Below are positions 22,916 through 42,475 of a stretch of DNA of 64,000 bases, piece by piece. This stretch comes from a virus. Made by a program: the position numbers and the translations under genes. Position 1 is the stretch's first letter; each line of letters opens with the position of its first letter. The notes beneath the pieces were generated by a model. It did no database searches. It saw only the letters and a program-made list of their open reading frames with translations, and was not told where the DNA came from. The DNA lies in IMG/VR virus record IMGVR_UViG_3300014838_000015, positions 37,226 to 101,225 of that record; one strand, given 5' to 3'.

Positions 22916-22973
22916 ATCAGCTTAAAGCTTAAATTTAAGTTAAATTTAACAGTACAGCTTAACAGCGTAGCAT

Positions 22974-23064: not shown

Positions 23065-23099
23065 TAAACTGATAGCTTAAATTTAGTAGTAATGATTAA
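23039..23099. repeat. Inverted repeat with 26-bp arms
   Basis: Arms 23039-23064 and 23074-23099 (ttaatcattactactaaatt and its complement, each ending at agct) are perfect and separated by 9 nt. The left arm belongs to direct repeat copy 2. As RNA this would form a long stable hairpin just before the glycan operon promoter. Confidence 0.9.
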
Positions 23100-23117
23100 G
23101 CGGTTGTTAACGTAACC

Positions 23118-23145
23118 TGTACAAGAAGCGTGAATAGATTATCTT
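23118..23145 (+). promoter_or_regulatory. Candidate promoter of the glycan operon
   Basis: TGTACA, 16-nt spacer, TATCTT, then 6 nt (gtctag) to ATG at 23152. It lies immediately downstream of the palindrome block. The spacing implies a leaderless or near-leaderless transcript. Confidence 0.5.
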
Positions 23146-23151
23146 GTCTAG

Positions 23152-26121: not shown

Positions 26122-26125
26122 CGTC

Positions 26126-26551: not shown

Positions 26552-26552
26552 C

Positions 26553-27323
26553 ATGGTTGATAATAAATTTGTGTTCATTGCACCGATCTACAATGCTTCA
26601 AAAACGTTGAATCAGATGATTGTATCGATTGTCGGTCAATCGTATTGCAACTGGAAAATCATATTGATTGATGATGTGTCAGAAACTGTTCTAGAACGTG
26701 ATAGTGAAAAATTCATAATCAATCAATGGAAAGACGTGTATGGATCAGATCGTATCGTAACGCTTTGGAACGATGAAAAGAAGTGGGAAATTGCGAATGT
26801 TTTACGTGGAATAAGATTATGTGATGATGATGACATCGTTTGTAGAATCGATGGTGATGATTATCTTTGTGATCTAGATGCATTGTGGATCTTGAATGAA
26901 ACGTACAAAGAATGTAAGTGTGACGCAGTCTGGAGCAAACACAGGTGGGGTAAATCAGACAGAAATATCTCATCCCATATGACATATGGATCCGATGTGT
27001 ACACACATCCATGGGTATCATCGCACCTTAAAACGTTTCGTAAACAATTGATTAACAATGTTCCATATGATAACTTTGTGAACATGAACGGTGAATTGGT
27101 ACGACGTGCAGGTGATCAGGCACTGTACCTACCGATACTTCACAATGCGAAAAAATGGATGTATCTGCCACGCGTGTTATATTCATATACAATAGACGAG
27201 CAAGGAGGAGCCGTTTATCAAACCGATGACGCTAAGTTCCAGAAAGCTGAAGCTGACTTCATTCGTGCACGTGGTTATGTGTCTATAGGCGATACGTGGG
27301 AGCAGAAGTTGCTGTGTAAGTGA
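26553..27323 (+). CDS. GT2-family glycosyltransferase
   Basis: 256 aa from ATG at 26553, with GGAGG 5 nt upstream; the longer frame from 26529 is out of place inside the previous gene. The GT-A core is clear: FVFIAPIYNASKTLNQMIVS, KIILIDDVS and the metal motif VCRIDGDDYLCD, followed by a sugar-acceptor region with HTMTYG-like histidines and DQALYLPIL. An inverting or retaining transferase of the GT2 clan; donor and acceptor unknown. Confidence 0.85.
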   Translation: MVDNKFVFIAPIYNASKTLNQMIVSIVGQSYCNWKIILIDDVSETVLERDSEKFIINQWKDVYGSDRIVTLWNDEKKWEIANVLRGIRLCDDDDIVCRIDGDDYLCDLDALWILNETYKECKCDAVWSKHRWGKSDRNISSHMTYGSDVYTHPWVSSHLKTFRKQLINNVPYDNFVNMNGELVRRAGDQALYLPILHNAKKWMYLPRVLYSYTIDEQGGAVYQTDDAKFQKAEADFIRARGYVSIGDTWEQKLLCK

Positions 27324-27343
27324 TGCGTTTTCTGTTGTAGACT
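27315..27343 (+). promoter_or_regulatory. Candidate internal promoter before ATG 27350
   Basis: TGTAAG, 17-nt spacer, TAGACT, then 6 nt to the ATG. It begins in the last codons of the upstream glycosyltransferase. Leaderless geometry. Confidence 0.45.
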
Positions 27344-27349
27344 TCTACC

Positions 27350-28282
27350 ATGAAGGTGTACCTGAACAGAACGCAACGATTTGGACCGTGGGGTGGCGGT
27401 GCAGCATTCACGAACGCTTTTATCAAGCGTGCTGGTCAACACTGTGAATTCATGAATGATCAATCATTGATGTTTGCACCGAGTGTAATACTCATTGCAG
27501 GTCTCGACAACGATGGAGGATCAGGAATTTCGTTTGACCAAGCGGTTCTTTACAAAATGATGAGCGATCCAAACGTTAAAATCGTTCTTCGTGTCAATGA
27601 AAACGACGCTCGTAAAGGAACCAACAACGTCGATAAGACGTTGGTTGAAGCTTCAAAGCACATTGATGGAACCGTGTTCGTGTCACGATGGTTACAGAGT
27701 TACTTTGCAAAAAAGAAGTGGAAGTGTAAGAATCAAACGGTGATCGTGAACGGCGTTGCTGCCGATGTATTCTCACCGCAACCGAAGCTAAACAACGGAA
27801 AGATCAACATCGTTACGCATCATTGGAGCGATAACGAGATGAAGGGTGCCGATTACTACGAACTCATTGATGATTTTGTTGGAAAGAACTCTGACAAGTT
27901 TTCATTCACATACATTGGTCGACATAAGTGTGATTTTAAAAACACGACAGTTATACGTCCTTTGCACGGAAAAGCTCTTGGCGATGAACTTGGTAAGTAT
28001 GATGTGTATGTGTCGGCCTCACGTTTCGATCCAGGACCGAATCACATCACTGAAGCAATATCGTGTGGTCTACCAACGTATGTCCACAAAGATGGTGGAG
28101 GCGCAGTTGAATTTGCAGGAAACGATCACGTGTTTTCATCGTACGTTGAACTAGAAAAGCTTTTGTTGAACGGTGAATTCAAACCGAACCAAACAACGTT
28201 TGCTGGTTGGGGCAACTGTATTGAATCGTACGTTCGTTACCTCGAAACGGTGTGTATGAATAACATTGTGATCGTGTTGTAA
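27350..28282 (+). CDS. GT-B glycosyltransferase
   Basis: 310 aa. The N-terminal domain starts MKVYLNRTQRFGPWGGGAAF, with a Gly-rich loop as in GT4 enzymes. The C-terminal domain has VNGVAADVFSP, then DVYVSASRFDPGPNHITEAI and a following GLPTYVHKDGGG, the donor-binding E-x7-E-like region of retaining GT4 transferases. There are no membrane segments. Probably adds a nucleotide-activated sugar to the glycan assembled by this operon. Confidence 0.8.
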   Translation: MKVYLNRTQRFGPWGGGAAFTNAFIKRAGQHCEFMNDQSLMFAPSVILIAGLDNDGGSGISFDQAVLYKMMSDPNVKIVLRVNENDARKGTNNVDKTLVEASKHIDGTVFVSRWLQSYFAKKKWKCKNQTVIVNGVAADVFSPQPKLNNGKINIVTHHWSDNEMKGADYYELIDDFVGKNSDKFSFTYIGRHKCDFKNTTVIRPLHGKALGDELGKYDVYVSASRFDPGPNHITEAISCGLPTYVHKDGGGAVEFAGNDHVFSSYVELEKLLLNGEFKPNQTTFAGWGNCIESYVRYLETVCMNNIVIVL

Positions 28283-28291
28283 GTTTCATAC

Positions 28292-28693
28292 GTGAAGAAG
28301 TTAGCGAACGATCAACAAGGCATGACCATTAGGTTCAGCGAGCTGCTCGAAAAGCGACTCAACGATGTTATTTCACGGAAGTATTGCTATGAAGCGTTAA
28401 CACCCGCAGCATTGAAAGGCATTCGTGATACGATTCGTGAAGTTGTGATCAGTATCTTCAACAAGAGTTCGTACAATCCATCGTATGAAATGATGGGATG
28501 GATCGCTAACCAATACTTCAGGCGCATTCAAATCAACGGCTCGCAGAGCATGGACGAACTTGTTATCATAAATGAGTTCAAGTTGTCAGAGATGTCAACG
28601 TTTGACATTTCACTACTTCGATCGTTGTTTTCTGGTACAACGATTGGATCTGATATCGAACTTGAAGTTGAAAGAAGGGGGATGTTATCATGA
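28292..28693 (+). CDS. Small helical protein, tandem paralogue 1
   Basis: 133 aa from GTG at 28292 (TAAGTT 6 nt upstream); ATG at 28322 is an alternative start. It is all-helical, with a FSELLEKRLNDV start, a central IREVVISIFNKSS helix and an acidic end (SDIELEVERRG). Position by position it resembles the next gene (FxxLLxxxL..I, IF..TVxVVF/S, YFxRIxING), so the pair arose by duplication. Function is unknown. Confidence 0.65.
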   Translation: MKKLANDQQGMTIRFSELLEKRLNDVISRKYCYEALTPAALKGIRDTIREVVISIFNKSSYNPSYEMMGWIANQYFRRIQINGSQSMDELVIINEFKLSEMSTFDISLLRSLFSGTTIGSDIELEVERRGMLS

Positions 28694-29058
28694 GCGAAAA
28701 GCAAACATTTCACGATATATTTTCAAAGTTATTGCTTGAAAAGCTCAAACCAATCACTCAAAAAAATGTATCGCTAGATCTTGCATCATGCGTTGAGATT
28801 TACACAATGGTGTTTAATACGCTCGTTGATGTGTTTCAGGCATCAAACGTAAAGCTCACCAACGAATCTGTCAACTACGTTGCGCAGTGTTACTACGATG
28901 GAATTGTGATCAATGACGGTCACTATCTCGATCCAAACATCTTCACTCAACGAGCGAAGCTTGAGAATATCTCGTCTGATGAATTGGCTCTTCTTGCAGT
29001 CATGTTAAAGGGCACGGGATTCATTGCTTCGATCGTTCTTGAACTCAAGAGAAGGTGA
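28690..29058 (+). CDS. Small helical protein, tandem paralogue 2
   Basis: 122 aa, ATG overlapping the previous stop (ATGA). It is similar in layout to the preceding product: FHDIFSKLLLEKLKPI, YTMVFNTLVDVFQASN, YVAQCYYDGIVINDG and the shared ending IASIVLELKRR against IGSDIELEVERRG. No catalytic motif was seen. It may be a virion-internal or regulatory helical bundle protein. It is coupled to the downstream glycosyltransferase by GTGA. Confidence 0.65.
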   Translation: MSEKQTFHDIFSKLLLEKLKPITQKNVSLDLASCVEIYTMVFNTLVDVFQASNVKLTNESVNYVAQCYYDGIVINDGHYLDPNIFTQRAKLENISSDELALLAVMLKGTGFIASIVLELKRR

Positions 29059-30014
29059 CCTTGAAGGTTCACTTCGATAACGTTTGTTTCAACGCTCCAA
29101 CGGGACCGAACGTGTTCGGAGTCAGGTTGGCTAAGCGATTGTTTGAGATGGGACACGAGGTGGTGTTGAGTGCTCATGGTGCTGATGTTTCGTTGGTATT
29201 CATAGAACCAACGGGTGCACCGTTAGCACCCATCGTTGTTCAGAGGTTGGATGGCATTTGGACGAAACCAAGCGATTTCAACACAAAGAACTTTATGATC
29301 AAATCGCTGTACGATGACGCTGACGCTGTTGTATGGCAATCAGAGTTCGATAAAACAACAATACAACGCTTATGGGGCACGAAGAACGGTGTTGTCATTC
29401 ACAATGGCATCGAGATAGCTCTTGTTAAATCAATCACGATACCAGCGTTGGCTGAGATGCGTGCAACGTACAAACGAATCTACGTGTGTAGTGCGAGCTG
29501 GCACGGTCAGAAACGCCTTGAAGCAAACGTTGGGTTCTTTAGGCACCTGAAACAAAAGTGTCACTCGAGTTGTTTGATCGTCATCGGTGACCATCCTGAT
29601 TATCGAGCAACAGGAACCGACGTGTTTTATGCTGGACACGTTACACCTGAAGTATACACACAAATATATTTTGCAGCCGATTGGATGCTACACCTTGCGT
29701 ACATGGATCACTGTCCGAACGTTGTTGTGGAAGCTTTGGCACAGGGAACGCCGGTAGCATGCGTTGATTCAGGTGGCACAAAAGAATTGATTGGAGCGTA
29801 TGGAATCGTTCTCAATGAAACAAAACATTCCGATGAATTTGAATTTATCGATTACGACAATCCGCCGGAACTTGACGTAACGCGATTCAATGAATTACCG
29901 GTTCGAAGTGAACTTGATTATTCAACGATTGCGGACATAGACATCAAGAATACGGCAAAAAAGTACGTAGAAATGTTCGAATCGTTGTGTACACCTAGTG
30001 CTGCTGGTGTATAG
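29055..30014 (+). CDS. GT-B glycosyltransferase
   Basis: 319 aa, GTG at 29055 overlapping the prior stop with AAGAGAAG upstream. The N-terminal domain has PTGPNVFGVRLAKRLFEMGH, the GT4 acceptor loop. The C-terminal domain has IYVCSASWHGQKRLEANV, then DWMLHLAYMDHCPNVVVEAL followed by GTPVACVDSGG, the donor-binding motif of GT4 enzymes. The last codons contain a promoter for the small NUMOD1 gene. Confidence 0.85.
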   Translation: MTLKVHFDNVCFNAPTGPNVFGVRLAKRLFEMGHEVVLSAHGADVSLVFIEPTGAPLAPIVVQRLDGIWTKPSDFNTKNFMIKSLYDDADAVVWQSEFDKTTIQRLWGTKNGVVIHNGIEIALVKSITIPALAEMRATYKRIYVCSASWHGQKRLEANVGFFRHLKQKCHSSCLIVIGDHPDYRATGTDVFYAGHVTPEVYTQIYFAADWMLHLAYMDHCPNVVVEALAQGTPVACVDSGGTKELIGAYGIVLNETKHSDEFEFIDYDNPPELDVTRFNELPVRSELDYSTIADIDIKNTAKKYVEMFESLCTPSAAGV

Positions 30015-30015
30015 T
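29988..30015 (+). promoter_or_regulatory. Strong candidate promoter before ATG 30023
   Basis: TGTACA, 16-nt spacer, TATAGT, then 7 nt (acaaatc) to ATG at 30023. It is the best -10 match of the leaderless set and overlaps the end of the upstream glycosyltransferase. Confidence 0.55.
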
Positions 30016-30022
30016 ACAAATC

Positions 30023-30223
30023 ATGACAAGAACAATTCAACAGGTCGATCCAAACACTCAACAGGTCATCGCGGAGTTTGCTTCGCCTCAGGCAGCAGCT
30101 ATTGCTGTGCAGAAGCCTGCTGGTCACGCAAACATCCTTCTCACGTGTGGCACAAACCTACTCTCTGGTAACAACACTCGGAAGTCGTACGGTTTCGTGT
30201 GGAAGTTCAACGATCAAGCGTAG
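30023..30223 (+). CDS. Stand-alone NUMOD1-like protein
   Basis: 66 aa. IQQVDPNTQQVIAEFASPQA with a C-terminal SYGFVWKF is a single NUMOD1 DNA-recognition module, the same type found at the C-termini of the GIY-YIG proteins at 496 and 4752, here without any nuclease. It could be a remnant of a homing endonuclease, or a domesticated DNA-binding regulator. The intact frame, its own promoter and the 10-nt gap to the next gene argue for expression. Confidence 0.65.
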   Translation: MTRTIQQVDPNTQQVIAEFASPQAAAIAVQKPAGHANILLTCGTNLLSGNNTRKSYGFVWKFNDQA

Positions 30224-30233
30224 AGAGCAGAAC

Positions 30234-31145
30234 ATGAACAAAGTCTGGGTCAACCGTCCTTATGAGGGTTGGATATGTGATGTGTTGGCCCAGCGTTTTA
30301 TGCATGATAACGCTGACATTTGTGTTAATGATCCACATGAAGCAGATGTGATTTGGTTGTTGGCTGATTGGACATGGCGACAGGTGCCACGATCGGTTCT
30401 CACATCAAAAAAGGTGTTGACGACGATTCATCACATTGTGCCACAAAAGTTTGGTGATGTTGAACGTCGTGATTTTGATGATCGTGATGTTATCACTAAT
30501 GCTTATCACGTATTTAATGATCATACGTATGAATTCATCAGACCATTGACTGACAAGCCAATTCACATCATCCAATATTGGGCCGATACAACTTTATGGA
30601 AACCAACTAATACGAAAGCTAAGCTTCGAGAGAAGCATGGGTTACCAATCGATGCGTACATCTGTGGAAGTTTTCAACGAGACACAGAGGGTGCAGGAAT
30701 TCCGAATGGAATATTTCTACCCAAGCTTGAAAAGGGACCTGATATTTTTGCATCGTATGTGATGCAATTGCGTCAAAAATGTCCAAATTTATATGTGTTG
30801 TTGGCTGGTTGGCGGAGGCAATACCTCATTGAGAGGTTAGAAAATGCATCAGTGCCATTCTCATACATTGAGTTACCATCTCAAGTAACGCTCAACGAAC
30901 TCTACCAAACGTTGGATTTGTATCCAATTGCTTCACGCTTTGAAGGTGGACCTCAAGCATTGATAGAGTGTGGTTTGTTGAACGTACCAGTCGTTTCGCA
31001 TCACGTTGGAATCGCGGAGCAGGTGTTACCGCCATCAGCGATCAATGATGATTTGATCAAGGCCATTCCTACTTGCCCAGATGTTTCAAATATGTTGCTA
31101 CCAAATGGATACGAAGATTACAGGAATGCATTCAAATGGATGTAA
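30234..31145 (+). CDS. GT-B glycosyltransferase
   Basis: 303 aa from ATG at 30234 with a GAGAG site; an upstream in-frame extension overlaps the NUMOD1 gene in another frame and is rejected. The N-terminal Rossmann domain includes MNKVWVNRPYEGWICDVLAQ and ADVIWLLADW. The C-terminal domain has ICGSFQRDTEGAG, LYVLLAGWRRQYL and IASRFEGGPQALIECGLLNV, a GT4-like donor site. Overlaps the next gene by 10 nt. Confidence 0.8.
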   Translation: MNKVWVNRPYEGWICDVLAQRFMHDNADICVNDPHEADVIWLLADWTWRQVPRSVLTSKKVLTTIHHIVPQKFGDVERRDFDDRDVITNAYHVFNDHTYEFIRPLTDKPIHIIQYWADTTLWKPTNTKAKLREKHGLPIDAYICGSFQRDTEGAGIPNGIFLPKLEKGPDIFASYVMQLRQKCPNLYVLLAGWRRQYLIERLENASVPFSYIELPSQVTLNELYQTLDLYPIASRFEGGPQALIECGLLNVPVVSHHVGIAEQVLPPSAINDDLIKAIPTCPDVSNMLLPNGYEDYRNAFKWM

Positions 31146-31966
31146 ATAACGTTGCATTTTTGCTTGTTACGTGTTCAATGGAACCAATGAGAGCAAACGT
31201 TCTCAGGAACGTTGTTGAGAATATTATTACAGTTGCACCTGTATTATACAATGTGCTCACGGTGTTTGATAATGCATCGACGGAACCTGATACGCTTGAA
31301 GTTCTCAATGGATTGAATCGTAACTTTGCACCTGTGTTTCGAGCCTCAGAGAACGTTGGTTACTGGTCTGCAATAGATTGGTGGCTTGATAGCATGAATG
31401 AATCGCCACCAAAATATACGTACATCATTGAATCAGACGTAATTCATTATGATTTCAACAAATTAAGGAATTGTGTTGACTACCTTGACACACATAACGA
31501 CGTTGGATCAGTGAGACTTCTGGAATTTTCTGTTAAGAATAAGCAATTTTATAACAAAGATGCACGCGTTGAAGGTAGCAGAGTTTCTGCGTGGCAATCA
31601 TCAACAAATAAAGCAACTGGCGAACGAATCGTGATTAATCACGATGAAGGTGATCTGTATAAAACAACGTTTTTAACACAGTTATGTGCATTGAATCGGT
31701 ATGAAACGATGCTTGAAACATTCAAACGTTTACGTGGCTTTCAGAAATTTTCTGAACTTGATTTTCAGAAGTTGTACTGGGAAAAGTACAAATCAACGGG
31801 TTTGCTTGATGGCGGAATATTTCACGCTGAACTTACGGCGGCAAAAAATAACTTACCTACTGGTTCGTGGACTCCGATCGATGAATTGAAGAGAATGGGT
31901 TACCTTCCATCGCGCTTTGCATCGATAACGCCACAAAACGAGTACACAGTACAGAGGATGATTTAG
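31136..31966 (+). CDS. GT-A-like glycosyltransferase
   Basis: 276 aa from ATG at 31136. Features of the GT2 clan: VAFLLVTCSMEPMRANVLRN, VLTVFDNAST, FRASENVGYWSAIDWWLDS (NxGx-type donor helix) and YIIESDVI as the acidic metal site. The C-terminal region carries a GIFHAELT histidine motif. Donor and acceptor unknown. Translation is coupled to the previous glycosyltransferase. Confidence 0.7.
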   Translation: MDVNNVAFLLVTCSMEPMRANVLRNVVENIITVAPVLYNVLTVFDNASTEPDTLEVLNGLNRNFAPVFRASENVGYWSAIDWWLDSMNESPPKYTYIIESDVIHYDFNKLRNCVDYLDTHNDVGSVRLLEFSVKNKQFYNKDARVEGSRVSAWQSSTNKATGERIVINHDEGDLYKTTFLTQLCALNRYETMLETFKRLRGFQKFSELDFQKLYWEKYKSTGLLDGGIFHAELTAAKNNLPTGSWTPIDELKRMGYLPSRFASITPQNEYTVQRMI

Positions 31967-31975: not shown

Positions 31976-33028
31976 ATGTCACGAATCATTGTCTTGGGTG
32001 GAACTGGTTCATTGGGTCGTAAGCTTATCGAACGTTTTTTGCCGAACAACGACGTTGCAGTGTATTCTCGTGATGAAGCAAAGCATTGGTCAATATCAAA
32101 CGATATGAAGGTTGGAAACCTTGCACATCGAATGTCATCGTTACAATTCTACGTTGGTGATGTACGTGATAAACAAAGAATTCGAGACGTTATTCGACAA
32201 TTCAAACCAGAGATTGTGATAATTGCCGCTGCGCTAAAGCAGGTAGACACATGTGAGTTGAGCCCATACGAAAGCGTTCAAACGAACCTTCTTGGTACAC
32301 AAAACATCATTGACGTGGTTAACGAACACGTCGAAAACAACTATGATAGACGATCGTTGATAGAAAAAGTTCTATTCGTTAGCACGGATAAAGCGTGTCA
32401 ACCTGTCAACGTATATGGCATGTGCAAGGCAATTTCCGAACGCCTGGTGACCAGCCAAGCGATGACAGGACACACGACCGTGAAGTACCTTGCCACTCGA
32501 TACGGGAACGTTCTGGAGTCACGTGGGAGCATCATTCCATTGTTCAAGTACCAGTGTATGCACGGTACGCAGCTTACGGTTACAGATCTTGATATGACGC
32601 GATTCTTGATGACGCTTGACGACAGCGTTGATCTCATAGAGAGAACGTTACACGAGGGTAAATCAGGAGAAACTTGGATTCCTCGTTTACCTGCTATGCG
32701 CATTGGTTGTTTAGCGAATATTTTTTCAAAATTGTATAATATACCCATCAAAATCATCGGCGCGCGACCTGGCGAAAAACGTGATGAGGATCTAATTTCG
32801 TTGTCAGAATCAACGAGAACGCGTTTAACGGAAGATCAACACAATTACGTTATAGCACCTGCATTCATGATGGGAAAAAACGATTCATTTGTGTATTCTA
32901 GTAATCAAAGCGTTATGAATGAGGATGAACTATTCAAGCACCTGAACGAATTAGGAATCATAGAAGCGCCTCTTGAAACGTTCAAAGGAATTGTAATCGA
33001 AGAAATAGCAACCAATCGTAAAGAATAA
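31976..33028 (+). CDS. UDP-GlcNAc 4,6-dehydratase-like SDR (PseB/CapE family)
   Basis: 350 aa. The N-terminal NAD(P) motif is VLGGTGSLG; then IVIIAAALKQVDTCELSPYE, VLFVSTDKACQPVNVYGMCK (catalytic Thr-Asp-Lys and Y-x3-K) and ATRYGNVLESRGSIIPLFK. This sequence of motifs matches the extended SDR enzymes PseB, CapE and FlaA1, which convert UDP-GlcNAc to a 4-keto-6-deoxy sugar. It is soluble, without the membrane part of CapD. Directly followed by the aminotransferase, as in pseudaminic- or bacillosamine-type pathways. Confidence 0.85.
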   Translation: MSRIIVLGGTGSLGRKLIERFLPNNDVAVYSRDEAKHWSISNDMKVGNLAHRMSSLQFYVGDVRDKQRIRDVIRQFKPEIVIIAAALKQVDTCELSPYESVQTNLLGTQNIIDVVNEHVENNYDRRSLIEKVLFVSTDKACQPVNVYGMCKAISERLVTSQAMTGHTTVKYLATRYGNVLESRGSIIPLFKYQCMHGTQLTVTDLDMTRFLMTLDDSVDLIERTLHEGKSGETWIPRLPAMRIGCLANIFSKLYNIPIKIIGARPGEKRDEDLISLSESTRTRLTEDQHNYVIAPAFMMGKNDSFVYSSNQSVMNEDELFKHLNELGIIEAPLETFKGIVIEEIATNRKE

Positions 33029-33029
33029 C

Positions 33030-34169
33030 ATGAAAACATTTCCGCTGTTTAAGGTTCACGTTCCAATAAAAGAAGCGCTTTGTAACATTGAGAACGTTTT
33101 TGATTCAGGATATATCAATGAAGGTGTTGAAGTTTCGCGTTTAACCGTTGAATTGCAAAGACACCTTCTTGCTAAACAGTTGATTCTAACGAATAGTTGC
33201 ACATCAGCGCTAACGTTGGCGATGAAACTCGTAGGAGTTGGACCAAACACAGACGTTGTCACAACGCCAATGACGTGCATTGCAACGAACGTTCCTATCG
33301 TGTCTAGCGGCGCAAGAATTGTGTGGGCAGACGTCGATCGTGAACACGGAATGATCGATCCCGATAGCGTACGTAGGTGTATCACAGATCGAACAAAGGC
33401 AATCATCGCCGTTGCTTGGGCAGGTACTGCCCCAGATCTCAACGCTTTACTAAACATTTGTTACGATCATAAAATCAAATTGATCCTTGATGCAGCTCAT
33501 GCATTTGGTGCAGAATATGAAAACATGCCCATTCACATGTCAGCGCATTACACAACGTATTCTTTTCAGGCGATTAAACACTTCACAACCGGTGATGGTG
33601 GTGCATTGGTTTGCAACAATAAGGATGATTATGAACGATCAAAATCATTGAAGTGGTTTGGTCTTGACAGGGAACAAGCGAAGGATTCTCGTGGTGATTG
33701 GAAGGGTCAACAGTGGGACGTTGATATTGAAGAAGCTGGTTTCAAGTTCAACATGAACAACGTTTCCGCCGCGATTGGATTATCACAGTTACCATACATT
33801 GGTGAAATACTAAAGAAACACAGAGAGAACGCAACAATTTACAACGAAGAACTGCAACATTGTAAGAACGTTGTTCCAAACTGGATACAAACCTTGGGAG
33901 GATCAAGTCACTGGGTTTATGCAGTTCACGTTGAGAACGAATTGAACAGGAATGTACTGCTTAAAGCGCTCAATGATGAAGGAATCATGGCTGGGTTGGT
34001 TCACGTGCCCAACGATGAATACACTTGTTTCAAGAACTTTGCAAAGGATTTGCCTGGCGTCAGAGAGTTCAGCCAAAAGCAATTTGCGTTACCATGTGGT
34101 TGGTGGCTGAACAGTGATGATATTCGTTATATTGCGCACCGCGTAAGCGAATTAGCGAGGACGTTATGA
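33030..34169 (+). CDS. DegT/DnrJ/EryC1 sugar aminotransferase
   Basis: 379 aa. PLP-dependent: LILTNSCTSALTLAM (phosphate-binding region), VTTPMTCIATNVPIV, KLILDAAHAFGAE (Asp to the pyridine N) and SFQAIKHFTTGDGG with the Schiff-base Lys. The family transfers an amino group from Glu to 4-keto or 3-keto nucleotide sugars. Its position right after the PseB-like dehydratase predicts a UDP-4-amino-4,6-dideoxy sugar product. Confidence 0.9.
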   Translation: MKTFPLFKVHVPIKEALCNIENVFDSGYINEGVEVSRLTVELQRHLLAKQLILTNSCTSALTLAMKLVGVGPNTDVVTTPMTCIATNVPIVSSGARIVWADVDREHGMIDPDSVRRCITDRTKAIIAVAWAGTAPDLNALLNICYDHKIKLILDAAHAFGAEYENMPIHMSAHYTTYSFQAIKHFTTGDGGALVCNNKDDYERSKSLKWFGLDREQAKDSRGDWKGQQWDVDIEEAGFKFNMNNVSAAIGLSQLPYIGEILKKHRENATIYNEELQHCKNVVPNWIQTLGGSSHWVYAVHVENELNRNVLLKALNDEGIMAGLVHVPNDEYTCFKNFAKDLPGVREFSQKQFALPCGWWLNSDDIRYIAHRVSELARTL

Positions 34170-34906
34170 AGATTTGGATCGGCACCATGGAAAGCGGCGA
34201 GAACGACTTTGTTGCTTGCTGTGCTGCAATCAGAAATTCTTGCCTTAAAGCGCTTAATAATTCTACGATCGAAGGATATGAACACAGCATCGTATCAGGG
34301 TTGCCTGAACACGAAGCACATGCAAAGTTGTATGAACTTTGGAACGAAGCAAAAACATCGTTTGATCTTTTCTTGAAGGTTGATGCAGACACCGTTCTAA
34401 TGCATAACAACGTTGTTACAGACGTTGTTATGCTGTTTAAATCAAATGCGCGGCTGACTGGAATTCAGGCGTGGTTGTACGATCACATGACTGATGGAAA
34501 CATCTACGGATTGAGCTGCATGCGTAACACGGTGTCGTTGTCACGGATCAATGATAAATTACATCCAGATCGTGTTGATTTGCCGTCAACGCATGACGTC
34601 GTGTTAAGAGGCGACGCGTTGCCACGATCGTTGATTCCAGCTGGCAAGCATTGTTGTGATGCTAACGCTGAACAAGCGTTTAGGTTTGGCATTCATCGTG
34701 CATTAAAGGGACAATTTCACATCATCGATCGTGTTCGAATTGCTTGGAAATCATCAAATGATGTACAACGTGGGTTTGCATTGTTGGGAGCTAAACAAGC
34801 TCGTGAATTGAGCAACGGTCTCAAGATCAATTACGGTGATGAGGAGTTCAAACAATTGTTCGAATCAACGAAATTGAAGTACGATGAATTGATTGGAACG
34901 TTGTGA
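34166..34906 (+). CDS. GT-A-type glycosyltransferase
   Basis: 246 aa, ATG overlapping the aminotransferase stop. It begins MKIWIGTMESGENDFVACCA; LFLKVDADTVLMHNNV is the DxD metal site. The C-terminal VRIAWKSSNDVQRGFALLGA could contact the acceptor. It belongs to the GT-A clan but the family is not certain. Likely transfers one of the sugars made here. Confidence 0.65.
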   Translation: MKIWIGTMESGENDFVACCAAIRNSCLKALNNSTIEGYEHSIVSGLPEHEAHAKLYELWNEAKTSFDLFLKVDADTVLMHNNVVTDVVMLFKSNARLTGIQAWLYDHMTDGNIYGLSCMRNTVSLSRINDKLHPDRVDLPSTHDVVLRGDALPRSLIPAGKHCCDANAEQAFRFGIHRALKGQFHIIDRVRIAWKSSNDVQRGFALLGAKQARELSNGLKINYGDEEFKQLFESTKLKYDELIGTL

Positions 34907-34907
34907 C

Positions 34908-35696
34908 ATGACAATAATTCTTGGAAAGAATTCGACCATTCACTCAAACGTTAGCGTTGATTCAAACGTAAACGTTATCATGGGTGATTGTTCATCAATT
35001 GGACAAGATGTTGTCATTTCAGGTGAAGGAACGTTGAGAATTGGTGATTATGTTAAGGTTCATAGGTTATGTTGGTTGAATGTTTTTAGCGACATTGATG
35101 TTGGTCACAATTCTTGGATTGGTGAAAAATCCATCATTGATGGAACGGCACGTTTGAAAATTGAAAACAACGTTCTTATAGGTGCTGCAAGTCAGGTTTG
35201 GACACACGTTGCTGGTGGGGATGCATTTTCAGGGTGTCGCATACGTTGTAGCAAATCAATCACGATAGAAAACAACGCATGGCTCTGCGCCGGTGTGTTG
35301 CTACAAGCGAGCAACGTTTCATCTCGAGTCGTTGTGTTTGCAGGCTCGAACGTCACAAGTGACATCTGTGCTGCCAATACGATTTGGTCAGGTAATCCAG
35401 CAATCGACATTACGAACGTTTCTGGGGGGAAACCGTGGGTCGACGTTACGGTTGAACAGAAGTTACAAAAATTTGATCTTCTTTTGAAGATGTACGAGAG
35501 AGAAGTTTGTAAAAACTATCACCGTAAATTCGTTGCTGTTAGTGATTTATGTGACAAAATTGATCAACAGGATGATGTGACGTATTTTAGTATGCATGAT
35601 TGCACGTATGTCAAAACGCAATCAGATGATGAACAATCGTTCATGAAGTGGTTGCTTAGACAAAATAAAGCAAAGTTCACACCGGTGATTCTATGA
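34908..35696 (+). CDS. Left-handed beta-helix acyltransferase
   Basis: 262 aa from ATG at 34908. The first ~185 residues contain hexapeptide-type repeats with V/I at i (SNVNVIMGDCSSIGQDVVIS, IGDYVKV, VGHNSWIGEKSII, IENNVLIGAAS, IENNAWLCAGVLL), and end NTIWSGNPA, the usual finish of LbH acyltransferases. The C-terminal ~75 residues are a helical extension. These enzymes acylate sugar amino or hydroxyl groups with acetyl-CoA or, in some systems, acyl-ACP. Adjacent ACP and FkbH genes make an ACP-dependent donor plausible. Confidence 0.8.
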   Translation: MTIILGKNSTIHSNVSVDSNVNVIMGDCSSIGQDVVISGEGTLRIGDYVKVHRLCWLNVFSDIDVGHNSWIGEKSIIDGTARLKIENNVLIGAASQVWTHVAGGDAFSGCRIRCSKSITIENNAWLCAGVLLQASNVSSRVVVFAGSNVTSDICAANTIWSGNPAIDITNVSGGKPWVDVTVEQKLQKFDLLLKMYEREVCKNYHRKFVAVSDLCDKIDQQDDVTYFSMHDCTYVKTQSDDEQSFMKWLLRQNKAKFTPVIL

Positions 35697-35950
35697 TGAA
35701 TGAACAAAAATTAGGTGCTGTGTTTGAACGCGTGTTCGTAAGTGATGGATTGTATAACGTGCGAGAATTTACATACGGTGACATGCCTGACGGAACAAAG
35801 GATTGGGATAGTTTGCAACACATGATTCTGTGTTCTCTGATAGAAGATGAATTTTATGTGATGTTCAGAATCGATCAAATCGCAAAGATTAGATCATACG
35901 ATGATGCAAAAGCGGTGTTGTCTGGGTTGGGAGTTGATTTCAATGTTTGA
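35693..35950 (+). CDS. Acyl carrier protein
   Basis: 85 aa, ATG overlapping the upstream stop. KDWDSLQHMILCSLIEDEFY contains the D-S-L phosphopantetheine attachment serine followed by the acidic recognition helix II; IRSYDDAKAVLSGLG is helix IV. Length is that of a normal free-standing ACP. It would need a 4'-phosphopantetheinyl transferase, presumably from the host. It likely carries the acyl or glyceryl group loaded by the FkbH-like protein two genes downstream. Confidence 0.8.
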   Translation: MMNEQKLGAVFERVFVSDGLYNVREFTYGDMPDGTKDWDSLQHMILCSLIEDEFYVMFRIDQIAKIRSYDDAKAVLSGLGVDFNV

Positions 35951-36347
35951 AACTTATCGAATAAATCACGTTGGAATGGCGGTTCCAAACATTGAACGTT
36001 ATCTAAAGACATGTGAGTCGTTGTATCGTGGATTCAATCGTTCTAAGTTGATCATCAATGATGCTCAAGGCGTTCTTGAATTGTTCATGAATGATGGCTA
36101 CACGACGTTGGAACTATTGGAACCATTGAATGATTCATCGCCAATAAAACAATTCCTTCATCATCATATCATGGGTGGGTTAGTTCACGTTTGTTATGAA
36201 TGTAACGATGTTTCAAAAGCGATAGAGCAACTCACTGTTTCAGGCGCTAAGTTGGTCAATGGACCGACACCTGATGTTGCATTCGATGGAAAACCAGTTG
36301 CGTTCATGTTCTTTGGGGGTCAATTGATAGAATTGGTGAATTGGTAA
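35943..36347 (+). CDS. VOC-superfamily (glyoxalase/epimerase-like) protein
   Basis: 134 aa from ATG at 35943, overlapping the ACP gene by 8 nt. The four expected metal ligands of the methylmalonyl-CoA epimerase/glyoxalase type are present in order: His in INHVGMAV, Glu in TTLELLEP, His in GLVHVCYE and Glu in QLIELVNW. The enzyme may epimerise or isomerise the ACP-bound acyl group. It is embedded between ACP and FkbH by overlapping codons, so co-function is likely; the reaction is inferred. Confidence 0.75.
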   Translation: MFETYRINHVGMAVPNIERYLKTCESLYRGFNRSKLIINDAQGVLELFMNDGYTTLELLEPLNDSSPIKQFLHHHIMGGLVHVCYECNDVSKAIEQLTVSGAKLVNGPTPDVAFDGKPVAFMFFGGQLIELVNW

Positions 36348-37363
36348 TGAAGGAATTCCGTAAGCTCATTGTTCTCGACCTCGACAATACGTTGTGGAAC
36401 GGTGTCGCCGGTGATGATGGATTAAACGTAAAACCGTTCATTGAATTTCAAACAGAATTGAAATTGCTCAAGGATCATGGTATATTGCTTGCTATTGCTA
36501 GTAAAAACGATGAAATCATTGCGTTAGACGTTATGAAGAATGCGAAAGGAATGGTTCTCAGCGAAAACGATTTCGTAGATTGGCGAATCAATTGGGATGA
36601 TAAGGCAAAGAACGTTTATGACATCACGAATGCATTGAACATTGGTTTGCAATCCGTTGTGTTCATTGATGATAATGAATTTGAGCGTGCAAGGGTCAAA
36701 GATGCGTTGCCTGAAGTTTTAGTTCCAGATTGGCCAAGCGTTCATGAGTACTATGTTGCAGCGCTACATGAGTTAGATTGCTTTGATACATCACCCACGA
36801 CAGAAGAAGATACGTTACGTACGCAGATGTATATAAAGGAACGCGAGCGTGCTAAACTTAGGTCAAACAGCGAATCGATTGATGATTGGTTGAACACGAT
36901 CGGAACGAAGATAGAGTTTGAAACATTGAACGATGATAATTTACTCCGCGTCGTTCAATTGTTGAATAAATCGAATCAAATGAACTTGACAACGAGGCGA
37001 ACGACAAGTGAAGAGTTCGTTTTATGGAACACAGCACCTGAAAACGTAACGCACGTCGTAAAGGTTTCAGACAGATTCGGTGATGCGGGATTGACGGGTA
37101 TCATTGGAATGCACATTGAACTTGATTGCATTAAGATCGTTGATTTCGTTCTTAGCTGTCGTGTGATGTGCAGGTTGGTTGAGGAAGCAATGGTTTCTCA
37201 CGTAATTGAGTTCGCAAGGAGCGTTGGTGGTATGACGAAAGTCGTTGCGGAGTACGTGCCGACCAACAGAAACAAGCCGTGTTTAGAATTCTGGCAACAA
37301 CGTTCTAGATTTAAACAATTTGATAACGTTTTTGTGTATGATTTACATGAGGTTAAACGGTGA
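36347..37363 (+). CDS. FkbH-like HAD-IIIC protein (ACP glyceryl/acyl loading)
   Basis: 338 aa from ATG at 36347 (TAATG overlap). The HAD motif I is LIVLDLDNTLWNGVAGDDG, motif II is LAIASKND, and motif IV is VVFIDDNEFER. The C-terminal GNAT-like half contains VSDRFGDAGLTGIIGM and VDFVLSCRVMCRLVEEAM, hallmark FkbH strings. Characterised FkbH proteins remove phosphate from 1,3-bisphosphoglycerate and load the glyceryl group on an ACP. With the ACP present, the phage probably encodes this reaction. FkbH-like proteins also occur in bacterial O-antigen loci. Confidence 0.88.
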   Translation: MKEFRKLIVLDLDNTLWNGVAGDDGLNVKPFIEFQTELKLLKDHGILLAIASKNDEIIALDVMKNAKGMVLSENDFVDWRINWDDKAKNVYDITNALNIGLQSVVFIDDNEFERARVKDALPEVLVPDWPSVHEYYVAALHELDCFDTSPTTEEDTLRTQMYIKERERAKLRSNSESIDDWLNTIGTKIEFETLNDDNLLRVVQLLNKSNQMNLTTRRTTSEEFVLWNTAPENVTHVVKVSDRFGDAGLTGIIGMHIELDCIKIVDFVLSCRVMCRLVEEAMVSHVIEFARSVGGMTKVVAEYVPTNRNKPCLEFWQQRSRFKQFDNVFVYDLHEVKR

Positions 37364-38271
37364 TAATTGATCTAGTTGACAGCTTTTCTTATGCAACAAC
37401 AAATTGTTTTGCTTATCAAATAACAACGTATATGAATGACGTTCCAAATTTGAAAACGATCGAATTATCGAACATTGAAAATGTTAAAAATGACAATATC
37501 GAAGGAATTGTTTGTAGATGTAAACAACGCTCAATAGTCAAATACATTGAAAAAATATCTGCGTTGGCTGATTCAACACCGGTCATAATTTACGATCAAG
37601 ATCCGTGGGAAGCGTTCATAGATGAATCACCATACAATGGTGCATATAATGATATTTTTAATGCTTTGAACGTAAAAACGTTCGCCGTTCCATCAAAATG
37701 GTGGAGTGATTATATTTTGCAGCGTGGTTTACCATCAACGTTCGTCAGAATGTGGATATTACCGGCGAATTGCAGCGAACGTCCAAATTTCATCGATAGA
37801 AAAACTAACGTTGGATTTATTGGTTCGGTGCATAAGCATAGAGCAAAACTATTCGATCAATTGCTTAAACTAGGCATTGATGTTTACGTTGTTGGAACGA
37901 ATTCGTACTCGTATCCAGAATATGTGAAATTATTATCAAACGTAAAGATTTACATAAGAACAGAAGATTCACAAAAAAATGTCAATGGTAACGTTGTGAA
38001 CTTACAACATGGATTGTGGGGCAGGGACATTGAAGTCGCTTCACGAGGATGCTTTTCAATAAGGGATCGTGGATTGTACAGTGAAACGTACATCGATGGA
38101 ATTGAAACGATTTTTCTCTACGATGATGTCAAAGACATACCCATGATGATCAAACAAATCAATGATATGGACGTCGTTGAACGACAAATGATGATCGATC
38201 GTTCTGTTGAACGTATTAGATCGCTAGATTACTGGCGTGAAACTGTAAAGATTCTCACTGATTTCACCTGA
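37360..38271 (+). CDS. GT-B glycosyltransferase (CgeB-like)
   Basis: 303 aa, GTG overlapping the FkbH stop (GTGA). The C-terminal half has NVGFIGSVHKHRAKLFDQLL, VYVVGTNSYSYPEYVKLLSN, and VNLQHGLWGRDIEVASRGCF, the pattern of CgeB/Glyco_trans_1_2 proteins with a spore- or phage-type donor site. It is the last transferase in the sugar block before the RmlD-like gene. Confidence 0.75.
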   Translation: MIIDLVDSFSYATTNCFAYQITTYMNDVPNLKTIELSNIENVKNDNIEGIVCRCKQRSIVKYIEKISALADSTPVIIYDQDPWEAFIDESPYNGAYNDIFNALNVKTFAVPSKWWSDYILQRGLPSTFVRMWILPANCSERPNFIDRKTNVGFIGSVHKHRAKLFDQLLKLGIDVYVVGTNSYSYPEYVKLLSNVKIYIRTEDSQKNVNGNVVNLQHGLWGRDIEVASRGCFSIRDRGLYSETYIDGIETIFLYDDVKDIPMMIKQINDMDVVERQMMIDRSVERIRSLDYWRETVKILTDFT

Positions 38272-38298: not shown

Positions 38299-39093
38299 AT
38301 GAAAGTTGTTGTCTTAGGTAGCACGGGAATGCTTGGTCATGAGCTAGTTTCACATCTCATTGGCAACACGAAGTTTGAGGTGTGGCCATACACAAGATCG
38401 TGCTTGGACGCTCGAGACGGTGATATTCGAATGATCAAAGAAGACACAGATTTTGTGATAAATTGCGCCGGTATTATACGACAAATAGAAGACACTGACG
38501 TTCATAATCTATTGAGAGTAAACGGCGTGTTTCCATGGAGGTTGCAGGATCGTTGTGAACAGGTTGGTGCTAAGTTGATACACGCTAGCACTGATTGCGT
38601 GTTCTCAGGAAAACGAGGAAGTTATACTGAACTTGATAAACCTGATGCAATTGATTTTTATGGGTTATCAAAGTCGCTTGGCGAACCACGAGACGCGATG
38701 GTCATACGAACGAGCATCATTGGAAGGGAAATCAAGACATCTAGATCGCTCCTGGAGTGGGCAATATCACACACCAATGAAACCATTGACGGATACATTG
38801 ATCACTTCTGGAACGGTATAACGTCACGAGCATACGCAAAAGCATGCGTAAAGATCATGATTGATGGATTATGGTCGCCGGGTATTCACCACGTGTTTTC
38901 AACTAGCGTGACCAAACACGATTTGCTTTGTAAGATAAGCAATGTGTATGGATTGAATCTCAAGGTGAAACCAGTTAAAAAGCACGATGTGCCCGTTGAT
39001 ATGACATTGGCGACGATGAAATCATTGTGCGCTTTTCTTGCGATTCCAGACATTGATACGATGCTACACGAACTGTCGAACGAAGAGGTGTAA
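38299..39093 (+). CDS. RmlD-like nucleotide-sugar reductase (SDR)
   Basis: 264 aa from ATG at 38299; an in-frame TTG at 38284 has no ribosome site. It shows VVLGSTGMLGHEL (NAD(P) loop), FVINCAGIIRQ, LIHASTDCVFSGKRGSYTE and DFYGLSKSLGE (Y-x3-K). This is the extended SDR clan of dTDP-4-dehydrorhamnose reductase/WbjC-like enzymes that reduce 4-keto sugars. It may act on the product of the 31976 dehydratase, competing with or following the aminotransferase. A TACATT box lies 6 nt before the ATG. Confidence 0.8.
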   Translation: MKVVVLGSTGMLGHELVSHLIGNTKFEVWPYTRSCLDARDGDIRMIKEDTDFVINCAGIIRQIEDTDVHNLLRVNGVFPWRLQDRCEQVGAKLIHASTDCVFSGKRGSYTELDKPDAIDFYGLSKSLGEPRDAMVIRTSIIGREIKTSRSLLEWAISHTNETIDGYIDHFWNGITSRAYAKACVKIMIDGLWSPGIHHVFSTSVTKHDLLCKISNVYGLNLKVKPVKKHDVPVDMTLATMKSLCAFLAIPDIDTMLHELSNEEV

Positions 39094-39733: not shown

Positions 39734-40185
39734 GTGATATGAACGTTTTTTTGAAGATTGCTCCCACCCCATCATTTTGGAGCGCGCTCGCGGGAAATTT
39801 TGTTAATTTCAAGACAGGTGATAAAATCATTATTCGGGATCAGTTTAAAAGGCTACTGGCGTTCCCAGAAGATCAAGCTCAATGGAACGAAACGTTGGTT
39901 GAAACGATCATCACATGTGAAAAAGATCTATTGGCGAACGGATTTGAACATTCTATGATCTATGTGAACAATGACGTTAGCAGAATTTTAGAATCTAGCG
40001 TTTTATACGTTCGCGCTGGAAAATATGAATCGTATGATGGAACGTTGTGTAGACGAATGAACGTTTACCGCGATCGTTCAATCGGCGATGAAGTTCTATT
40101 GATCGCTGAAAACAACAAATGTAAAATTGCAACGAGAAGGATCATCGTTCTTGATATTGGTAAGAAAAACAAGGAGCACGTATGA
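39730..40185 (+). CDS. Hypothetical protein in glycan operon
   Basis: 151 aa from ATG at 39730 (ATGA overlap). It starts MSDMNVFLKIAPTPSFWSAL. A mixed alpha/beta sequence with FEHSMIYVNNDVSRIL and VLYVRAGKYESYDG; no recognised motif. It is coupled at both ends to the methyltransferase and UDP-glucose dehydrogenase genes, so it is probably a pathway component. Confidence 0.65.
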   Translation: MSDMNVFLKIAPTPSFWSALAGNFVNFKTGDKIIIRDQFKRLLAFPEDQAQWNETLVETIITCEKDLLANGFEHSMIYVNNDVSRILESSVLYVRAGKYESYDGTLCRRMNVYRDRSIGDEVLLIAENNKCKIATRRIIVLDIGKKNKEHV

Positions 40186-41150
40186 AGCAATCGATCGCCG
40201 TAATAGGTCAGGGATTCGTGGGTGGATCGTTGACAACCGTGTTCGCTGAACGAGGATTCGACGTTCACGTGTTTGATAAAGCAGGAAAGGTTGCACCGAA
40301 CGCGACGCCTTTTCGTTATTTTCCGGAGATCAATGAAGGATCGAACGGCAAGGTTCGTAACATCACGAACCTTGTGTATGCATGTGAATCCTTGGGTCGT
40401 GGGTTCAAGAACGTTTACTTCGTTTGTTTACCAACACCGATGTGTGAAGACGGTTCGTGTGATCTTACGATCGTTGAAGGTGCACTTCGTGAGCTCGCCT
40501 CGGCTCCAGGAATTAGCGGAAGAATCGCAGTTGTTAAGTCAACTGTCCCGCCTGGAAGCACTGAACGTTGGAATGAGGAATTCAAATCGCTCAATTTACG
40601 TGTCATCTTCAATCCTGAGTTCCTTCGCGAAGCCAGCGCGCTCGATGATATGCGGAACCAGAACCGCGTTGTTCTTGGCGGACCACGCCCGTACATCAAT
40701 AGAGTGAAGCAGATTTTTGAATCGGCATTTCCGAACGTGCCGATCATCAAGACATCGTCGACAACCGCTGAAATGGTGAAGTACGTGTCCAACGTTCACC
40801 TCGCCGTCAAGGTTTCATTGGCAAATGAGTTTTACCAAATCTGTGAAGCCCTCGATTCACGAGGGGCGAATATTGATTATGATAAGGTGATCGAATATGC
40901 GACACTCGATGAACGACTTGGAAAATCGCACTGGAAGGTGCCAGGTCCTATGCCTTCTGATGACACTGGAGAACCAGCATATGGTTATGGCGGAAGTTGT
41001 TTTGTGAAGGACATTAATTCTTTGATTTTCTTGGCGAGGGAATTAGGAATTGATCCAAAGGTGATGCTTGGTTCGTGGAATAAGAATATTGAAGTTCGTC
41101 CACAAAAAGATTGGCTTAGGCTCGTGGGTAGGGCCGTTAGTAAGAAATGA
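40182..41150 (+). CDS. ugd: UDP-glucose/GDP-mannose dehydrogenase family protein, short form
   Basis: 322 aa, ATG after AAGGAGCACGT. It shows IAVIGQGFVGGSLTTVFAER (NAD loop), VYFVCLPTPMCEDGS, VVKSTVPPGSTERW, NPEFLREASALDDM and GYGGSCFVKDINSL with the catalytic Cys. The family oxidises UDP-glucose to UDP-glucuronate using two NAD+. It is ~70-120 residues shorter than cellular Ugd because most of the C-terminal UDP-binding domain is absent after NKNIEVRPQKDW. It may still act if substrate binding comes from the dimer partner, or may prefer another sugar. Confidence 0.88.
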   Translation: MKQSIAVIGQGFVGGSLTTVFAERGFDVHVFDKAGKVAPNATPFRYFPEINEGSNGKVRNITNLVYACESLGRGFKNVYFVCLPTPMCEDGSCDLTIVEGALRELASAPGISGRIAVVKSTVPPGSTERWNEEFKSLNLRVIFNPEFLREASALDDMRNQNRVVLGGPRPYINRVKQIFESAFPNVPIIKTSSTTAEMVKYVSNVHLAVKVSLANEFYQICEALDSRGANIDYDKVIEYATLDERLGKSHWKVPGPMPSDDTGEPAYGYGGSCFVKDINSLIFLARELGIDPKVMLGSWNKNIEVRPQKDWLRLVGRAVSKK

Positions 41151-41279: not shown

Positions 41280-42302
41280 ATGCACATGCACAAGTACGGC
41301 GTACTGATCGGACGATTTCAGCCATTTCATAATGCTCACCTGGAGACGGTACGGTTTGCGTTAGAGCACGTTGAGCGGCTCATCATCGTTCTTGGATCTC
41401 ATAATCGAGCTCGTGACATTCGTAACCCATGGTCTACTGATGAACGCGTAACGATGATTGATTCGTGTCTTTCTCACGATGATAACGAACGTATTGAATT
41501 CGTGAAAGCCAGTGACTATGACTATAATGATCTTTTGTGGGTAGCAACGGTCCAGGAAGCCATTCACGAGGTAACGAACGGGTCAACTGACGTCAAGTTG
41601 ATCGGTCATCGTAAGGATGCAACCAGCTTCTACCTGAATTTGTTTCCACAATGGGGTGATCACATTGAAACTGGCATCAGCATGAACGTCGACGCGTCGA
41701 AGGTTCGAGAGATGATGTTCGGTCTCGATACAATAGGAATAAAAGACATGGTACCATCTAACGTGTATGGTATGCTCATCACGTACATGTCTACTCCGGA
41801 GTTCAAACGCCTTCACGATGAATATCACGACATTCTTGCTGATAAGGTTGCATGGTCAGGTGCACCGTACCAACCGACATTCGTGACAACCGACGCCATC
41901 GTCATCTGCTCCGGTCACGTGTTGGTAGTCAGACGACGAGGTCGCTACGGAAAAGGATTGATTGCATTGCCAGGTGGTTATATCAAGCCGTCAGAATCGA
42001 TACAAAATGGTTGCATCCGCGAACTCAAGGAGGAGACGGGAATCAAGATCGATTCTCAAACGTTACGTACTCACTGCGTTGATTCGCACGTATTTGATAA
42101 TCCAACACGTGACCTTCGTGGACGAGTGATTACACACGCCTTTTGTTTCAGGTTACTAGATGGTGAATTACCGCGTGTCAAAGGAATGGATGACGCTGAT
42201 CGTGCGTGGTGGATGCCTCTTCGAACGGTGTGGGCAAGCGAGGAGAAATTCTTCTGTGATCACTTTCACATAATCAATTCTTTTTGTAACAGGATGTCTT
42301 AA
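41280..42302 (+). CDS. nadM: Bifunctional NMN adenylyltransferase-Nudix hydrolase
   Basis: 340 aa. Residues ~5-175 form a nucleotidyltransferase: GRFQPFHNAH (phosphate/ATP HxGH-type motif), IIVLGSHNRARDIRNPW and the C-terminal ISMNVDASKVREMM (ISSTxxR-like). Residues ~205-340 form a Nudix domain with the complete box GGYIKPSESIQ...REL.EETGI. This fusion resembles cyanobacterial and phage NadM/NMNAT-ADPR pyrophosphatase enzymes that make NAD+ from NMN and ATP and hydrolyse ADP-ribose. It is paired with NAMPT downstream. Confidence 0.92.
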   Translation: MHMHKYGVLIGRFQPFHNAHLETVRFALEHVERLIIVLGSHNRARDIRNPWSTDERVTMIDSCLSHDDNERIEFVKASDYDYNDLLWVATVQEAIHEVTNGSTDVKLIGHRKDATSFYLNLFPQWGDHIETGISMNVDASKVREMMFGLDTIGIKDMVPSNVYGMLITYMSTPEFKRLHDEYHDILADKVAWSGAPYQPTFVTTDAIVICSGHVLVVRRRGRYGKGLIALPGGYIKPSESIQNGCIRELKEETGIKIDSQTLRTHCVDSHVFDNPTRDLRGRVITHAFCFRLLDGELPRVKGMDDADRAWWMPLRTVWASEEKFFCDHFHIINSFCNRMS

Positions 42303-42304
42303 AC

Positions 42305-42445
42305 ATGAAGTTCATAGCGAGCATCGCTAAACAACTCGAAGCGGCAGGTTTTGATTATGCAGTTGCAGTTGCAACACAGGCAGAGATCGATGCCGGTGCC
42401 GCATGTGGCCAACTTAGCCTAGTGATTGAGAATAACAAGAAGTAA
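42305..42445 (+). CDS. 46-aa protein between the two NAD genes
   Basis: ATG at 42305, 2 nt after the upstream stop; TAA at 42443. The product begins MKFIASIAKQLEAAGFDYAV and is Ala-rich and helical with one Cys. No family was recognised. Its tight placement between the two NAD enzymes suggests it is translated with them; it might be a small regulator or adaptor. Confidence 0.5.
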   Translation: MKFIASIAKQLEAAGFDYAVAVATQAEIDAGAACGQLSLVIENNKK

Positions 42446-42475
42446 CGTAACACCACGAACGACCGGAGAGGTTCA

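Follow-up and report, generated by a model that had tools for sequence, protein, structure and literature searches.

A tailed phage encodes, within a glycan gene cluster, a compact cassette of a beta-helix acyltransferase, an acyl carrier protein (ACP), a VOC protein and an FkbH-family enzyme. These genes are present, intact and tightly overlapping in a viral context, and they occupy the slot in which related phages carry a stand-alone N-acylation enzyme for an amino sugar. As judged from gene content, the arrangement is consistent with the N-acylation step having been replaced by a carrier-dependent one. The reading we somewhat favor is that a soluble glycan cluster N-acylates a 4-amino-4,6-dideoxy (or similar) nucleotide sugar by a carrier-protein route, where relatives fill the same slot with enzymes using acetyl-CoA (GNAT) or formyl-folate (formyltransferase). 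What is new here is the combination and the slot exchange; FkbH/ACP loading, PseB-DegT amino-sugar routes and phage glycan clusters are of kinds already known. If the proposal is true, phages can change the acyl group of a glycan by swapping one enzyme slot, and the options for that slot include a carrier-protein route drawing on glycolysis. Being compact, the cassette would also serve to test directly what GmACP3-type ACP/FkbH/VOC sets make in the glycan clusters of bacteria, a setting in which they have a putative role.

The window analyzed is a stretch of 64,000 nucleotides covering positions 37226–101225 of a viral record 101,225 bases long. Genes elsewhere in the record for a major head protein, a portal, a terminase large subunit and a primase mark its source as a real tailed phage. 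The genes of interest lie on the plus strand of the window at 31976–38271, in the order PseB-like SDR, DegT, u246, beta-helix acyltransferase, ACP, VOC, FkbH and u303. A preliminary description had placed the six named proteins in one coupled run; all were recovered at the same place and strand, and the run was found to include two probable glycosyltransferases as well. Consecutive genes overlap by 4 bases at acyltransferase/ACP (ATGA at 35693), 8 bases at ACP/VOC (35943), 1 base at VOC/FkbH (TAATG at 36347) and 4 bases at FkbH/u303 (37360). Starts were refined from the junction sequence, giving ATG codons at 34908 for the acyltransferase, 35693 for the ACP, 35943 for the VOC protein and 36347 for FkbH. 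GC content of the cassette (0.39–0.41) is like that of neighboring genes, and composition is thus uninformative on recent gain. The full cassette was seen in only one virus, which could be taken to mean that it consists of passenger or decaying genes without a phage role, or that it reflects misassembly or bacterial contamination. We consider this highly improbable. A second assembly (L005, a 27-kb contig) shows 99.99% identity with the window over 14 kb spanning the cassette, making a chimeric assembly unlikely. No cassette frame is interrupted and their starts and stops overlap, catalytic residues are preserved at ~46% identity to the closest bacterial homologues, and the genes on either side show synteny with other phages.

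The interval belongs to a ~20-kb glycan cluster, which encodes several glycosyltransferases, methyltransferases, an RmlD-like reductase and a UDP-glucose-dehydrogenase-like enzyme. Its upstream part (23152–31966, plus strand) contains several glycosyltransferases and a methyltransferase (PF00535, PF00534, PF13692 and PF13578) and is syntenic with the phage loci L010 and L012. Within the run, u246 (34166–34906, plus strand) is a probable GT-A glycosyltransferase with a KVDADT motif; it found no family match in profile searches and has 41–45% identity to its syntenic L012 and L010 orthologues. The last gene, u303 (37360–38271, plus strand), is a probable GT-B glycosyltransferase conserved in relatives, with homologues at 23 viral loci and a PF13524 match (1e-3) that is below cut-off. 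Further downstream on the same strand are the RmlD-like NAD(P)-dependent sugar reductase (38302–39093; PF04321, 1e-22) and the UDP-glucose/GDP-mannose dehydrogenase-like enzyme (40182–41150; PF03721, 4e-26 and PF00984, 6e-20). A hydropathy scan found no polytopic proteins among the glycan-cluster proteins, the upstream part included; the cluster hence has no apparent flippase, polymerase or membrane O-acyltransferase. This absence leans slightly towards a soluble acceptor.

The first two enzymes point to amino-sugar synthesis. The SDR (31976–33028, plus strand) resembles PseB/FlaA1-type NAD-dependent nucleotide-sugar dehydratases (Polysacc_synt_2; PF02719, E 2e-74) and carries the active-site motif STDKA...YGMCK, of which STDKA and YGMCK are invariant with two phage relatives. 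It is followed by a DegT/DnrJ/EryC1-type PLP aminotransferase of sugar 4-aminotransferase-like character (33030–34169, plus strand; PF01041, E 3e-78), in which SFQAIKHFTTGDGG with the PLP lysine K183 is invariant. Profile matches firmly place both proteins in these families, as had been described for the DegT enzyme. The SDR had been called UDP-GlcNAc dehydratase-like. Its SDR assignment held, but the narrower one was not supported: it scored 255 bits against the PseB model TIGR03589 (inverting UDP-GlcNAc 4,6-dehydratase), below the equivalog cut-off of 408, while exceeding that of the broader PF02719. Likewise, the aminotransferase passed PF01041 but reached 223 bits against the PseC model TIGR03588, below the equivalog cut-off of 423. 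Since the two proteins fall short of the PseB and PseC equivalog cut-offs, UDP-GlcNAc is a putative starting sugar.

Viral contigs were scanned with SDR and u303 alignments, yielding 44 and 23 loci, respectively. The order GT-SDR-DegT-slot-u246-u303-UGD is common to the window and many of these loci. In the 38 other viral contigs with PseB-DegT, counted without dereplication, the slot held a GNAT in 25, a formyltransferase alone in 8, a beta-helix protein alone in 2 and none of these in 3. Overlapping GNAT starts in L113–L115 were missed by the slot-count script; the GNATs there are shown in the locus comparison. The window's contig, which may be incomplete, has neither a GNAT of the relatives' type nor a formyltransferase, the controls for the latter being detected. 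A distant GNAT domain is present in this contig at G000:7612–7836, among structural genes. Only the window's virus combines the beta-helix protein with ACP, VOC and FkbH among these PseB-DegT viruses. Exchange in this slot across relatives is the main new evidence for assigning the acylation step to the cassette.

The acyltransferase gene (34908–35696, plus strand) encodes a left-handed beta-helix (hexapeptide) protein, as the preliminary description had it, with PF14602/PF00132 repeats and a WcaF-like subfamily match. The PF14602 score is marginally above cut-off (27.9 bits against 27), and sequence matches in the PDB were hexapeptide acetyltransferases. Its structural model was poor (pLDDT 67), and a fold search with it returned nothing at E 0.001. 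Beta-helix homologues with 34–37% identity were found in three relatives (L110, L119 and L124), all without ACP or FkbH and two also without a GNAT or formyltransferase nearby, from which it follows that the protein may use acetyl-CoA. It could then be an ordinary acetyltransferase that finishes the amino sugar by itself, with the ACP/VOC/FkbH thioester going elsewhere: to a hydroxyl on a sugar, for example, or to a group on which u246, u303 or the product of an unknown gene acts. The MBOAT family of O-acyltransferases is the commonest acyltransferase family in bacterial FkbH-ACP-VOC loci (7/81 neighbors), which lends some weight to a separate acceptor, but no other acyltransferase and no membrane O-acyltransferase was seen in the phage cluster. 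An independent acetyl-CoA enzyme is also at odds with the direct coupling of the beta-helix gene to the ACP gene through the ATGA overlap. We give this alternative a real but minor chance of being correct. Under the carrier-dependent reading, the beta-helix enzyme would instead transfer the acyl group from the ACP.

The ACP (35693–35950, plus strand) is of the GmACP3 type, with the predicted phosphopantetheine serine Ser40 in a DWDSL motif. Its best sequence match in the PDB is 2LML, holo-GmACP3 (E 4e-4), and an iterated profile reached E 2e-15. W38-D39-S40 is invariant in 34 homologues. The model (pLDDT 85) has four helices (2–15, 40–54, 60–65 and 69–78) with Ser40 opening helix II, in keeping with the DSL serine described earlier. 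The best fold match was again the 2LML holo-ACP, with 28% identity in the fold alignment; fold-search E-values were 0.01 or worse, as is usual for such a short helical bundle. Against Pfam, including PP-binding PF00550, no family was matched at E 0.01. No phosphopantetheinyl transferase (PF01648) was found in the window's contig, so the phage ACP would need the host enzyme.

FkbH (36347–37363, plus strand; 338 aa) is a predicted HAD-IIIC acyl-ACP loading enzyme that scores 256 bits against TIGR01686, well above the curated cut-off of 146.65. Of the 72 columns with 90% conservation across 85 homologues it retains 61, including D13/D15/T17, S54-K55-N56, K88, D110-D111 and the SCR motif with C273, bearing out the complete HAD motifs noted previously. 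Most bacterial homologues exceed 500 residues owing to an N-terminal domain that this protein does not have. After HAD motif I it has 14 residues, against 23–24 in all 82 full-length bacterial homologues; this longer loop is a common feature of the homologues examined rather than a published family criterion. Another phage FkbH, from L006, has 15 residues at this point and so lacks the 9-residue loop as the window's FkbH does. In the FkbH tree the window sequence joined no firm sister branch, a clade of window and L006 being neither supported nor rejected (p-AU 0.45).

Downstream of the ACP and upstream of FkbH lies the VOC protein (35943–36347, plus strand), a glyoxalase/methylmalonyl-CoA-epimerase-like member of PF13669 (5e-14; 52.8 bits, cut-off 27). 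The four metal ligands attributed to it earlier are conserved as H11, E59, H84 and E132 (numbering of ORF window:35937-36344). It is closest to methylmalonyl-CoA epimerases (MMCE), with 3RMU as best PDB match, and scored 79 bits against the methylmalonyl-CoA epimerase model TIGR03081, below the equivalog cut-off of 115.

Enzymes of the FkbH family have been proposed to charge a free-standing ACP with glyceryl from 1,3-bisphosphoglycerate (1,3-BPG) (PMC7489565), and by analogy we infer glyceryl as the cargo here. The missing 9-residue loop could change the FkbH substrate. Acylation might then remain carrier-dependent with a different cargo, the shortened FkbH using, for example, a lactyl or hydroxy-acyl phosphate that the VOC protein modifies. 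Absence of the loop in the window and L006 and in none of the full-length bacterial enzymes, linkage of an epimerase-type VOC, and the lack of an adjacent methoxymalonate-route dehydrogenase all speak for such a cargo. The other catalytic residues are nevertheless those of FkbH, and described family pathways are proposed to proceed from 1,3-BPG to glyceryl-ACP (PMC7489565); we rate a non-glyceryl cargo as distinctly unlikely.

Under the carrier-dependent route with glyceryl, the PseB-like SDR would form a 4-keto-6-deoxy NDP-sugar, which the DegT enzyme would aminate, both steps following from family membership. A host phosphopantetheinyl transferase would arm the phage ACP at Ser40. By family chemistry, FkbH would charge the ACP with glyceryl derived from 1,3-bisphosphoglycerate, or with a related phospho-acyl group, probably taking up the acyl group via its conserved cysteine. 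More speculatively, the VOC protein might adjust the thioester, for instance by epimerizing the alpha carbon. The beta-helix acyltransferase would move the acyl group from the ACP to the sugar amine, and neighboring glycosyltransferases would add the sugar to a glycan of the virion or the host. The acylated amino-sugar pathway put forward in the preliminary description thus retains its amino-sugar route, acylation step, own ACP, true FkbH and real phage source; the glyceryl cargo, ACP-dependent transfer by the beta-helix protein, and UDP-GlcNAc as substrate are putative.

Bacteria pair FkbH with an ACP as a general module. Of 80 bacterial or archaeal FkbH loci, 58 have a WDS-type ACP on the same strand no more than 1.5 kb away, and nine of the loci closest to the window's FkbH have an LDS-type ACP directly upstream instead. 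Altogether FkbH and ACP adjoin in ~67/80 bacterial loci, which suggests a bacterial origin for the module. A VOC protein is near FkbH in 12/80 bacterial or archaeal loci, nine of which (9/80) combine it with a WDS-type ACP. Our literature search found nothing tying FkbH to O-antigen, lipopolysaccharide or glycan.

Viruses very rarely carry the module: when 2.9 million contigs were scanned in a pattern-limited way, FkbH with ACP was recovered from four unrelated phages, namely the window's virus, L006, L172 and L170. In L006 the ACP is fused to FkbH and a GNAT-type protein comes next, its homologues adjoining FkbH in the bacterial loci L013 and L015; a terminase small subunit and replication genes flank this module. 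In L172, a 76.7-kb contig with NAMPT and RNA-repair genes and no sugar genes, ACP and FkbH genes share an ATGA overlap; in L170 the pair lies beside terminase and portal. The L170 and L172 ACPs match PF00550 weakly, below cut-off. A DNA- or RNA-modification role was considered for these two modules; each has a small unassigned third protein, neither of which gave a family match or a meaningful PDB match. FkbH genes near phage genes in L093/L168, L094 and L167 had no detected ACP and were left out of the count. Among 50,697 annotated phage records the only FkbH/ACP matches look bacterial. The same query matched 120 plasmid records, indicating that the search was sensitive. Two INPHARED entries labelled Bacteriophage, MT835480 and MT839313, were rejected as phage cases: both FkbH sequences branch among Bacillota, and folylpolyglutamate-synthase-like and conjugation-type proteins surround the match in MT835480. 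The claim that such a route, carrier protein included, is unusual in viruses therefore stands for FkbH-ACP, found in four phages only, but not for phage-encoded ACPs as such, which had been reported (PMC11705849, PMC8224337, PMC11924767); the unusual part is the pairing of a phage ACP with FkbH. A broader view would make FkbH, its own ACP and an acyltransferase a recurrent phage module with several forms in these four unrelated phages, using host 1,3-BPG as acyl currency for unusual surface sugars, or for a non-sugar target in L172, with the window's VOC protein acting as an acyl-ACP epimerase that sets glyceroyl stereochemistry. We think it unlikely that all of this is correct together.

Several known systems share parts of this arrangement. 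Glyceryl loading in methoxymalonyl-ACP and tetronate pathways (Mad7/Mad8, Mad14/Mad12, OzmB) likewise uses a HAD-IIIC FkbH with an SCR cysteine and a free-standing ACP. The window version differs in its phage location, in having amino-sugar genes instead of a polyketide synthase as neighbors, and in lacking the 9-residue loop; none of the methoxymalonate-route dehydrogenases was seen in its run. GmACP3 of Geobacter metallireducens (2LML) is the closest solved structure to the ACP by both sequence and fold and shares the WDSL serine motif, whereas the window's ACP is viral and the function of GmACP3 is itself putative, the title of Ramelot et al. 2011 (cited in PMC4847154) giving a putative role in lipopolysaccharide biosynthesis. 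Bacterial ACP-FkbH-GNAT cassettes (L013, L015) and phage L006 have an FkbH of the same clade as the window (100/100 support), with an ACP and an acyltransferase. Their ACP, however, is upstream or fused and of LDS type, and their transferase is GNAT-type rather than beta-helix; within that clade a VOC gene adjoins FkbH only in L019. The PseB-PseC-PseH and formyltransferase routes and their phage versions (L010, L012, L112 and others) have in common with the window a dehydratase, an aminotransferase and an N-acylation slot. Gene order and flanking glycosyltransferases are the same as in related phages, and in place of the GNAT or formyltransferase the window has a beta-helix acyltransferase with ACP, VOC and FkbH.

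Unrelated phage contigs were found to carry FkbH together with an ACP in both fused and separate forms. In L006, a phage contig encoding a terminase small subunit, an O-like replication protein and endonuclease VII, an ACP domain and FkbH form one fused protein (4793-5998). A GNAT-type protein follows this fusion, along with a polysaccharide deacetylase, a methyltransferase and an MptE-like protein. The 76.7-kb phage contig L172 instead encodes ACP and FkbH as a gene pair with an ATGA overlap, plus an unassigned protein of 156 aa (7807-9474). Genes around the pair include those for NAMPT, RNA ligase and RlaP; the neighbourhood holds no sugar genes. In phage contig L170 (646-5217), terminase and portal genes lie close to FkbH and ACP, and the ACP gene overlaps that of an unassigned 140-aa protein. 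Two further records, MT835480.1 and MT839313.1, are labelled Bacteriophage in the phage collection. The FkbH proteins of both branch among Bacillota, and the surroundings of the FkbH gene in MT835480 resemble a bacterial chromosome.

The related phages L124, L131 and L113-L115 each combine a GNAT with a formyltransferase in one cluster, and L124 has the beta-helix protein there as well. A single phage may therefore make several differently acylated sugars.

In the window, the glycan cluster is adjoined by an NAD salvage pair (41280-43960), comprising a NadM-Nudix bifunctional protein followed by a nicotinamide phosphoribosyltransferase. At 47494-47569, ARAGORN reported a tRNA-like gene whose anticodon has four bases (ttca). 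Probable inteins or homing elements lie within structural-gene ORFs of the sequences L004 (580-5340; record 20580-25340) and L003 (10492-13476 in both numberings). The portal protein ORF (1586 aa) contains an internal HNH endonuclease, the major head protein ORF (660 aa) has its best profile match in the C-terminal half, and the head-closure ORF is fused to an endonuclease.

Bacterial FkbH-ACP-VOC loci often have MBOAT O-acyltransferases close by, at 7 of 81 neighbours across 15 loci scanned (for example L073 and L081; also L021). This proximity suggests glycan acylation of a Dlt-like or alginate-like kind in these bacterial loci, with FkbH feeding the system.
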